A stretch of 64,000 nucleotides of DNA from Acidovorax sp. NB1 (GTDB lineage Bacteria > Pseudomonadota > Gammaproteobacteria > Burkholderiales > Burkholderiaceae_C). A program made the translations under genes and the position numbers. The notes under the pieces were generated by a model. It searched no databases, was not told the DNA's origin, and was given only the letters and a program-made list of their open reading frames with translations. The stretch spans positions 433-64,432 of the forward strand of contig NZ_BJHU01000059.1 of assembly GCF_005405905.1 (NCBI RefSeq), written 5' to 3'. This document shows, in pieces, positions 46,082 through 48,261 of this stretch (position 1 is its first letter; every line of letters begins with the position of its first letter).

Positions 46082-47260
46082 TCAGAACAGGCTGCTTTGC
46101 CCTTGCAGCAGACCGGGGCGGAATTGGCCCAGGTCCAGCTCCACCCGTTCGCGGTTCAGGCCCAGCCTGCGGCAGGTGGTGGCAAAACGCTGGCGAACCA
46201 GGTCGGCCCACAGGCCGGTGCCTTTCATGCGGGTGGCGAAGTCGCTGTTGTAGGTTTTGCCTGCGCGGCGCTCGGCGTCGCTGAGGTGGTGCAGGTCTTG
46301 CACCCGGGCCATCACGCGCGCGGCGCGCTGGGGGTAGTGCACCTGCAGCCATTCGCGGAATAGCGCGTCCAGCTCCCACGGCAGACGCAGCACGGTGTAG
46401 AAGGCACTGCGCGCACCCGCGTCGCGTGCGGCCTCCAGCACCTGCTCCATGTCTTCGGTGATGAAGGGGATCTGCGGCGCCACGCTCACGCCCACGGGCA
46501 CACCCGCCTCGGCCAGCGCGCGGATGGTGCGCAGGCGCCGGTGGGGCGCGGCGGCGCGGGGTTCCATGCGGCGGGCCAGCGCGGCATCGAGCGTGGTGAT
46601 GGTGACGTACACAGCAGCCAGGCGCTGCGCGGCCAGCGGGGCGAGCAGGTCCAGGTCACGCTCTACGCCGCCGGACTTGGTGATGAGCGAAAACGGGTGG
46701 CGCGCGTCGCGCATCACCTCGATCACGCTGCGGGTGAGCTTGAGCTCGCGCTCCACGGGCTGGTAGCAGTCGGTGGCGGAGCCGATGTTCAAGAGGCGCG
46801 GCACATAGCGCGGCTGGGCCAGTTCGGCCCGCAACACGCTGGCGATGTTGTGTTTGGCGACGATCTGCGTTTCAAAGTCCAGCCCGGGCGAGAAGTTGAG
46901 GTAGCTGTGCGTGGGCCGGGCGTAGCAGTAGATGCAGCCGTGCTCGCAACCCCGGTAGGGGTTGACCGAGAGTTCGAAAAAGATGTCGGGTGAATCGTTG
47001 GCGCAGATGGCGCTGCGCGCGGTTTCGAGGTGCACGCGGGTGGCAGCATGGGTCGCGGCGGGGTTGGCTGGGGCATAGCCTGCCCCATCATCGTCTCCAG
47101 GCGGTGGGCCCCAGCCGTCGTCGGCCACCTCACGCGTGTCGCGCGCAAACCGGTGCGCCATGGCCGTGGCCGCACCCCGGCCGCGAATGGCCTGCAAGGG
47201 AATGCGGACCTCTTCGGGCGGCGCGGGGATGTCGGAGGAGTCCGTGAAGGTGCGCGGCAT
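46082..47260 (-). CDS. PA0069-family radical SAM protein (SPL-like)
   Basis: 392 residues. The [4Fe-4S]/SAM motif is C-x3-C-x2-C in YRGCEHGCIYCYARPTH (about residues 107-123), preceded by the family LSVNPYRG. The N-terminal conserved AIRGRGAATA lies about 25 residues in. The family is often annotated as DNA repair photolyase or spore photoproduct lyase-like, but its activity is unproven. Start at ATG 47260 puts a perfect LexA-type box one base upstream, which supports a DNA damage role and leaves no room for a normal ribosome-binding site. Confidence 0.85.
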   Translation of the reverse strand: MPRTFTDSSDIPAPPEEVRIPLQAIRGRGAATAMAHRFARDTREVADDGWGPPPGDDDGAGYAPANPAATHAATRVHLETARSAICANDSPDIFFELSVNPYRGCEHGCIYCYARPTHSYLNFSPGLDFETQIVAKHNIASVLRAELAQPRYVPRLLNIGSATDCYQPVERELKLTRSVIEVMRDARHPFSLITKSGGVERDLDLLAPLAAQRLAAVYVTITTLDAALARRMEPRAAAPHRRLRTIRALAEAGVPVGVSVAPQIPFITEDMEQVLEAARDAGARSAFYTVLRLPWELDALFREWLQVHYPQRAARVMARVQDLHHLSDAERRAGKTYNSDFATRMKGTGLWADLVRQRFATTCRRLGLNRERVELDLGQFRPGLLQGQSSLF

Positions 47261-47280
47261 AACTGTATAAATATACAGTT
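47261..47280. promoter_or_regulatory. LexA (SOS) box
   Basis: AACTGTATAAATATACAGTT: CTGT-N8-ACAG, a 20-base near-perfect dyad matching the E. coli-type SOS box used by LexA in beta- and gammaproteobacteria. On the minus strand it contains TATATT and is directly followed by the ATG of the radical SAM gene. Confidence 0.75.
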
Positions 47281-47316
47281 TTTTGACGACGCGCGCATCG
47301 TTTGCTCAGCCCGCGC

Positions 47317-47343
47317 TCAGCGCACCCAGCGCACCCAGCGCAC
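47317..47343 (+). repeat. short tandem repeat, three units of CCAGCGCAC
   Basis: TCAGCGCAC, CCAGCGCAC, CCAGCGCAC: three near-identical 9-base units between the radical SAM and LysR genes, just after the LysR stop on the minus strand. Possibly variable in copy number. Confidence 0.6.
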
Positions 47344-47361
47344 GCAAGCCAGCGGGTCATT

Positions 47362-48261
47362 TCACTCCTTGAACAACTGCTCGATCAGGCCGCGCATCCA
47401 CTGGTTGCCGGGGTCGCTTTCAAACCGGCGGCTCCAGTGCAGCGACACAGTGAAGTCGCGCAGCGGCAGCGCGGGCTCGATCAGGGTGTAGCCGCCATCG
47501 GCGGCAAAGGTGCGCGCAATGTTGCGGGGCATGACCACGGCCAGGTCTGTGGCGCGCACGATGGCGGGCAGCACCATGAAGTGTTCGGTGGTCAGGCGGA
47601 TGCGGTCCTGCAGCTGCTGCATCTCCAGGATGCGCAAGGTGTCGGAGTGGGCGCGCACGGCCACAAACTCCAGTTGCCGCAGGGCACCCAGCAGCACCGG
47701 GCCGCTGCGCCGGGTGGCGGCAAAGGGGTGGCCTGCGCGCAGCAGCACCACGTAGCGGTCGTGGAGGAGCTGCACGCGCTGCGTGTCCTTCACCGTGGGC
47801 AAAAAGCCGAAAGCGAAGTCGATGGCGCCGCTGTCCAGCCGCTGTGGGATCTCGTGGCGCGGCACGGGCAGCGTCTCCAGCCGCACGCCGGGCGCCTGGT
47901 GCTGCAGCGCCACCATCAGGTCGGGCAGAAAACGGCCCTCGCCAATGTCGCTCATGTGGATGCGAAAGACCTTGTGCGACTGCAGCGGCTCGAACTGGGC
48001 GGATTCGTTGAGTGCCTCTTCCAGCAGGCCCAGGGCGCTGCGCACGGCGTTGGCCAGCCGGTCGGCCTTGGGCGTGGGCTGCACGCCGCCGCCTGCGCGC
48101 ACAAACAGCGGGTCTTTGATGAGCAGGCGCAGGCGCGTGAGTGCCTGGCTGGCGGCAGGCTGCGTCAGGTCCAGCAGGTCAGCGGCGCGGCTCACGCTGC
48201 GCGTGCGGTAGACGGCATCAAACAGGCGCAGCAGGTTGAGGTCAATGTCCTTGATATGCAT
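47362..48261 (-). CDS. LysR-family transcriptional regulator (NodD/NahR-like)
   Basis: 299 residues. The N-terminal IDLNLLRLFDAVYRTRSVSRAADLLDLTQPAASQALTRLR-type HTH, with DLNLL at the very start and PLFVRAGGG after the helix, is typical of the NahR/NodD/LinR branch that often controls aromatic degradation genes. It is divergent from the benzoylformate decarboxylase gene (66 bases apart), its likely target. Effector unknown, perhaps an aromatic acid. Confidence 0.87.
   Translation of the reverse strand: MHIKDIDLNLLRLFDAVYRTRSVSRAADLLDLTQPAASQALTRLRLLIKDPLFVRAGGGVQPTPKADRLANAVRSALGLLEEALNESAQFEPLQSHKVFRIHMSDIGEGRFLPDLMVALQHQAPGVRLETLPVPRHEIPQRLDSGAIDFAFGFLPTVKDTQRVQLLHDRYVVLLRAGHPFAATRRSGPVLLGALRQLEFVAVRAHSDTLRILEMQQLQDRIRLTTEHFMVLPAIVRATDLAVVMPRNIARTFAADGGYTLIEPALPLRDFTVSLHWSRRFESDPGNQWMRGLIEQLFKE

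Follow-up and report, generated by a model that had tools for sequence, protein, structure and literature searches.

A near-consensus LexA operator abuts the start codon of a PA0069-family radical SAM gene in Acidovorax sp. NB1: predicted SOS control and a putative near-leaderless message

Can a repressor operator that touches a start codon set the points at which both transcription and translation begin? This question was raised by one locus in a 64,000-nucleotide stretch of DNA from Acidovorax sp. NB1, which was analysed as a whole and is referred to here as the window. A gene on its minus strand (46082..47260) encodes a radical SAM protein (PF04055) of 392 aa that belongs to the PA0069 family (NF033668, 425 bits against a cut-off of 360). 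We propose, with a probability of about 0.7 and on the basis of sequence comparison, that this gene is a LexA-repressed SOS gene for a radical SAM enzyme probably engaged in DNA repair, and that its operator, which contains a -10 element, ends at the start codon and leaves a leader of 0–3 nt. Bound there, LexA would mask the core promoter as well as the beginning of the gene. Upon DNA damage, LexA would be cleaved and RNA polymerase would start 0–3 nt before the AUG; the resulting mRNA would be leaderless or nearly so and would lack a Shine–Dalgarno site.

The minus strand of the window reads AACTGTATATTTATACAGTT at 47280-47261, and the ATG (47260-47258) stands directly next to it. This palindromic 20-mer (47261..47280), which is kept in relatives, agrees with the E. 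coli LexA consensus at 17 of 20 positions and contains a 16-bp core of the form CTGT-N8-ACAG, CTGTATAAATATACAG, at 47263-47278. The gap to the ATG is 0 nt for the 20-mer, 1 nt for the 18-mer and 2 nt for the core. The preliminary description had placed an SOS box one base before the ATG, which is correct for the 18-mer because that form leaves 1 nt. With up to three mismatches allowed, the 18-mer was the sole site in the 64-kb window (seen on both strands) and had no match in 100 dinucleotide shuffles of the window. The looser pattern CTGK-N8-MCAG occurred nine times in the window against 8.0 expected and was not above chance. The agreement with the consensus, the uniqueness in the window and the empty shuffles bear out the description of the palindrome as a near-consensus SOS box. 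Both the box and its placement are real and appear to be under selection.

Across the whole genome, CTGT-N8-ACAG was found at 32 places, compared with 14 for the reversed control, and the exact 16-mer core occurred twice. The other copy (L049 1565-1580; C25:25064-25079) is flanked by a DUF72 gene (ATG at a distance of 47 nt) and by a short, divergently oriented ORF without a known family; therefore, the DUF72 gene may be SOS-controlled as well. Additional LexA-like boxes precede a gene of the 2'-5' RNA ligase superfamily (PF13563; L118 1501-1518, C16:83021) and, at a distance of about 31 nt, imuA (NF033429; L127 1501-1518, C5:332876). Finally, CTGTAAATTCATACAG (L046 1437-1452; C35:195436) is separated by 5 nt from the ATG of an ORF of 99 aa that has no family match and lies upstream of an ORF that looks Cas2-like by eye.

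We read the regions upstream of PA0069-family genes in four kinship sets (genus, family, order and class) using a simple box score, with scores >=19 taken as strong. All 31 genus loci, our own included, carried a strong box (shuffles, 1.0%); these were 31 of 32 fetched loci, L228 having been dropped because the KGRG pattern failed. The box was likewise strong in 113 of 118 family loci (shuffles, 0.4%), which were read from 140 non-genus family genomes with a match and were in part picked by best score. The order and class loci were also picked by best score and, like that part of the family loci, are therefore not random samples; among them, a strong box was present in 4/9 order loci and in only 1/26 class loci (shuffles about 0.6% in each). 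Wide conservation across the GTDB class was thus rejected on class loci that comprised the best 30 of 73 genomes with a match, less four dropped because the KGRG pattern failed. This comparison makes SOS control of the PA0069-family gene very likely, and the box in 31/31 genus and 113/118 family loci gives good support to the link with DNA damage that had been drawn from the single sequence. At one genus locus (L034), two copies of the distal LexA-like box, 250 bp apart, precede the PA0069 gene.

Spacing between box and start codon was counted from the last G of the core. Among 113 family loci, 46 had a gap of exactly 1 nt and five had one of 2 nt, so that core and ATG were this close in 51/113. 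In the genus, a 2-nt gap was seen at 18 of 31 loci, and at the other 13 the nearest ATG lay 13-85 nt from the box. As a control, lexA loci from the same bacterial family were scored (30 of 31; L342 was dropped). None of these 30 loci had an ATG 1 or 2 nt downstream of the best box. When any box scoring >=17 was counted, 1/30 had one (L328, 1 nt), and a second ATG lies there at 34 nt. Two boxes 19 nt apart were seen in 29 of the 30 scored lexA loci (L116, L313-L341). Among 80 named PA0069 loci, 13 were of the 1-nt type, 3 were of the 2-nt type, 2 had an ATG inside the box, 39 had the box elsewhere, 20 had none and 3 were unscored. A survey for the fused pattern returned 51 places in 44 of 150 genomes, compared with none for the reversed control. 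By coordinates, 30 of the 51 places were at PA0069 genes. In 30 loci that were read, 18 of 31 sites were PA0069 starts, nine of the other 13 belonged to ORFs of <70 codons, and one more belonged to a frame that looks UmuD-like by eye. A looser pattern applied to our own genome gave far too many GC-rich places among the matches listed and was set aside. In one family genome (L379, about 1503-1520), a box fused to an ATG precedes a frame read by eye as UmuD-like.

The ATG at 47258..47260 (minus strand) was taken as the start codon on the basis of the ORF, its conservation and a conserved motif downstream. This R/K-G-R-G motif (residues 26-29; 47174..47185, minus strand), in which G27 and G29 are invariant in 36 sequences, is conserved, indicating that the start is to be expected upstream of it. 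In the window, the open frame upstream of the ATG contains no ATG, GTG or TTG, and one TTG lies downstream. The abutting ATG is the only ATG, GTG or TTG between box and KGRG motif in 26 family loci (22 + 4) and five genus loci. When the whole open frame before KGRG is considered, no second start exists in 22 of the 71 abutting loci, whereas 20 of the 71 carry another in-frame start that lies upstream of the box or within it. By codon position, GC content in the 1-nt type was periodic downstream of the ATG (0.77/0.58/0.78), compared with a non-periodic 0.64/0.68/0.67 before the box. Six family loci (L056, L057, L058, L155, L172 and L198) have an in-frame ATG inside the LexA box. It is the sole start codon from box to KGRG in three of the six, and L056 has an ATG at 1 nt in addition to the one inside the box.

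A putative -10 element, TATATT, occupies core positions 3-8 of the operator (47270..47275, minus strand). Judged from the usual -10 spacing, transcription is predicted to start between the G at 47263, 6 nt after the -10, and the A of the ATG at 47260 (47260..47263, minus strand). Of the 23 loci of the 2-nt type, the window's gene among them, 78% have TA...T at core position 3; +1 would then be expected at core position 15, with a leader of <=3 nt. A -35 in the 18 genus loci of this type was not significant (510 of 1000 permutations were as high). At the window locus, a consensus scan gave no sigma-70 promoter and no -35 was recognisable 16-18 nt from the -10; therefore, the leader of 0–3 nt is a prediction only.

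The 1-nt type gave a clearer phase. In 48 such loci, matches to TTGACA peaked at position -18, counted from the box's first C (mean, 2.71 matches), a value reached by 0 of 1000 permutations when the loci are treated as unrelated. TA...T was present at core position 5 in 60% and at position 3 in 2% of these loci; it also fits position 11 in 40%, and plain TATAAT match counts were alike at positions 3 and 5 (4.29 and 4.19). Position 5, which the joint -35/-10 score favoured in 30/48 loci, was chosen as the -10 because of its last T and the -35. The resulting geometry has a spacer of 17 nt and 6 nt from the -10 to the ATG, such that +1 would be expected on the A of the ATG. Leaderless initiation at all boxes was considered and rejected: in the 77 PA0069 loci with the box elsewhere, TA...T is found at position 3 or 5 in just 6% or 4%, respectively, and the best joint -10 lies most often at the upstream edge of the box (27/77). 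The preliminary description had read TATATT as implying a leaderless mRNA. The -10-like hexamer, the strict spacing and phased promoters in two gene families favour this claim, and the missing promoter and -35 at the locus itself weaken it; near-leaderless transcription is the best reading of these sequences, and it is strongest in the relatives. Leaderless mRNAs account for 4.67% of primary starts in Cupriavidus metallidurans, with enrichment for transcription and replication/repair (PMC7563307), and they are also reported for Burkholderia cenocepacia (PMC4603805), indicating that such mRNAs exist in the same bacterial family.

The second gene family is TIGR03916 (rSAM_link_UDG, a putative DNA modification/repair radical SAM family), which is unrelated to the PA0069 family yet converges on the fused arrangement. 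It was found in 28 of 150 genomes. In our own genome, the GTG start of the TIGR03916 gene on C57 takes the last G of the box CTGTAAATTTATCCAG (L232 868-886; box at C57 109367-109384). A box was present in 27 of the 29 TIGR03916 loci read, and the GTG falls on its last G in 16/29. All 16 GTG-fused loci have TA...T at core position 3, and as a group they show a -35 at -20 that 0 of 1000 permutations equalled with the loci treated as unrelated; as before, the spacer measures 17 nt and 6 nt separate the -10 from the start codon. Compared with the 1-nt PA0069 type, the start lies at core position 15 instead of 17, and the promoter has moved 2 nt along with it. This joint shift would be difficult to account for if +1 were not tied to the start codon. 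We therefore raise, as a tentative idea on which we are nearly evenly divided but lean to doubt, that operator, -10 and start codon of one class of SOS radical SAM repair genes in Burkholderiales are fused within about 20 bp, that this state was reached separately in two families and several lineages, and that the promoter was shifted base for base so as to keep +1 on the start codon (ATG at position 17, GTG at 15).

The distribution of the fused types was viewed on a tree of 132 proteins, built by a quick method after identical proteins had been removed. Thirty of the 33 rows of the 1-nt type fell on one well-supported branch along with one box-less row, indicating that these loci are not independent; the other three were L016/L282 and L303. 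Seven of the 10 named rows on this branch are Sphaerotilaceae (Azohydromonas, Rhizobacter, Rubrivivax, Paucibacter and Roseateles). The 1-nt label requires four changes on the tree, and starred branches force at least two of these. The 12 rows of the 2-nt type comprise Acidovorax relatives and one Comamonadaceae MAG (L255); this label needs eight changes, of which at least three are forced. In four genus loci (L028, L033, L034 and L036), the outer half-site at the ATG has decayed and the AT-rich part is kept; a site resembling the box lies some 51 nt away from the ATG in these loci.

Several other explanations of the locus were weighed. That the palindrome is inherited or fortuitous and not a working LexA site is highly improbable: by eye, the DNA upstream of the box has diverged while box and ATG were kept, shuffled upstream regions seldom reach a strong score, and the genome has its own lexA gene with two similar boxes upstream. 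Slightly less remote, yet still improbable, is translation from the downstream in-frame TTG at residue 22 (47195..47197, minus strand) on an mRNA with an ordinary leader. A Shine–Dalgarno-like AAGAGG lies 11 nt upstream of this TTG, the NCBIfam model aligns only from residue 26 on, and L230 and L231 have a GTG at the same codon. However, a TTG at this codon is absent from all 17 other 2-nt genus loci, 15 of which have no start codon of any kind at that position, the residues immediately preceding it (VRIP and similar) are found repeatedly in these loci, and the abutting ATG is without a competitor before KGRG in the 22 loci described above. We judged that this TTG is not the start. A stronger alternative, albeit an unlikely one, accepts LexA control but assumes an ordinary leader from an upstream promoter, for instance by read-through from a LysR-type regulator gene, with LexA acting as a roadblock at the ATG. 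The LysR gene (47362..48261, minus strand; ORF and family match) lies 101 bp upstream on the same strand, no terminator-like site was found between the two genes, and the box has no consensus promoter. Against this, -35 and -10 are phased in the 1-nt relatives and in TIGR03916, and a Shine–Dalgarno match of >=4 nt was found in 0 of 71 abutting loci, a count largely forced because the box itself occupies that space. Such a match was present in 6% of loci with a box–ATG gap of 3-11 nt (n=17), 31% at 12-25 nt (n=26) and 32% farther away (n=25), compared with 16% in shuffles. Between the LysR and radical SAM genes, a short tandem repeat of CAGCGCACC in about three copies was observed at 47318-47344; on the other side, an Sbt_1 family transporter gene converges on the radical SAM gene.

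The remaining alternative concerns the enzyme, which had been called SPL-like with unproven function. Its model (mean pLDDT, 77; pTM, 0.77; residues 1-71 and 111-129 mostly below 50) has spore photoproduct lyase as the closest solved fold (Z 17.4, rmsd 3.3, 252 aligned, 12% identity; also first by Foldseek), and the next other family was NifB (Z 14.3). Likeness to the lyase therefore holds for the predicted fold. It did not extend to sequence searches: a single-protein search reached no PDB match, and a profile search of PDB sequences at E <= 1 returned SkfB (E 0.0007) and weak NifB matches, with spore photoproduct lyase absent. Nor did it extend to the catalytic cysteine. In spore photoproduct lyase, C140 is the H-donor cysteine, and this residue is mutated in several of the lyase's PDB entries. 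The cluster cysteines C105, C109 and C112 of the CEHGCIYC motif (46925..46948, minus strand) are invariant in 36 PA0069-family sequences, and no invariant or nearly invariant fourth cysteine was found in them; therefore, the cysteine H-donor chemistry of the lyase is probably not shared. A true spore photoproduct lyase acting on thymine photoproducts is accordingly unlikely, to nearly the same degree as the leader from an upstream promoter. It would fit the closest fold and a 2012 paper that reads SOS-regulated splB of Beta- and Alphaproteobacteria as photoreactivation (PMC3323433), but it conflicts with the 12% identity, the profile search and the missing cysteine. What the solved lyases (PDB 4FHC-4FHG, 4K9R) and the PA0069 family have in common is the radical SAM fold. 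An SOS-controlled radical SAM enzyme with a probable role in repair is the reading that we prefer.

PA0069 itself probably belongs to the SOS regulon of Pseudomonas aeruginosa. Literature searches, from which subscription papers were mostly absent, found nothing on PA0069 with LexA or on Rv2578c with LexA, and no description of a LexA operator fused to a start codon in the portions of papers available. SOS regulation of splB in Alpha- and Betaproteobacteria was predicted by Sanchez-Alberola et al. 2012 (PMC3323433); as here, an SPL-like radical SAM gene of Betaproteobacteria has a LexA box in front of it, whereas operator position, leaderless transcripts and a fused start are not mentioned in the accessible part of that paper, and its splB is a possible ortholog of the NF033668 gene. 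Two further papers link SplB-like proteins to SOS gene neighbourhoods (PMC3765255) and name SplB as SOS-regulated in several species, along with a COG1573-COG4277 operon (PMC8565304). This operon is also controlled by a LexA box and tied to repair. In the bacterial family studied here, the GTG of TIGR03916, which we take to be the radical SAM part of the operon, often overlaps the box; it represents another radical SAM family, with its GTG at core position 15 in contrast to an ATG at 17 or 18. The lexA gene of Mycobacterium tuberculosis is leaderless (PMC2897130) and is likewise an SOS gene translated from its transcription start, but it is a different gene in another phylum, and the part of the report available does not describe its operator as fused to the start codon. 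Thus, SOS regulation was foreseen in print in 2012, and the fused, phased operator and start codon appear to be new as far as the literature searches show.

These loci provide a conserved and testable collection of leaderless proteobacterial messages, probably induced by damage, and they tie two radical SAM families of unproven repair chemistry to the SOS response. They suggest that a palindromic operator can fix both a promoter and a translation start. Start-codon annotation is affected as well, in that a GTG overlapping an operator is easily missed. If the fused arrangement works as proposed, repression would act on promoter and start codon at once, and the leaderless message made after damage could be translated by undissociated ribosomes, independent of Shine–Dalgarno initiation.
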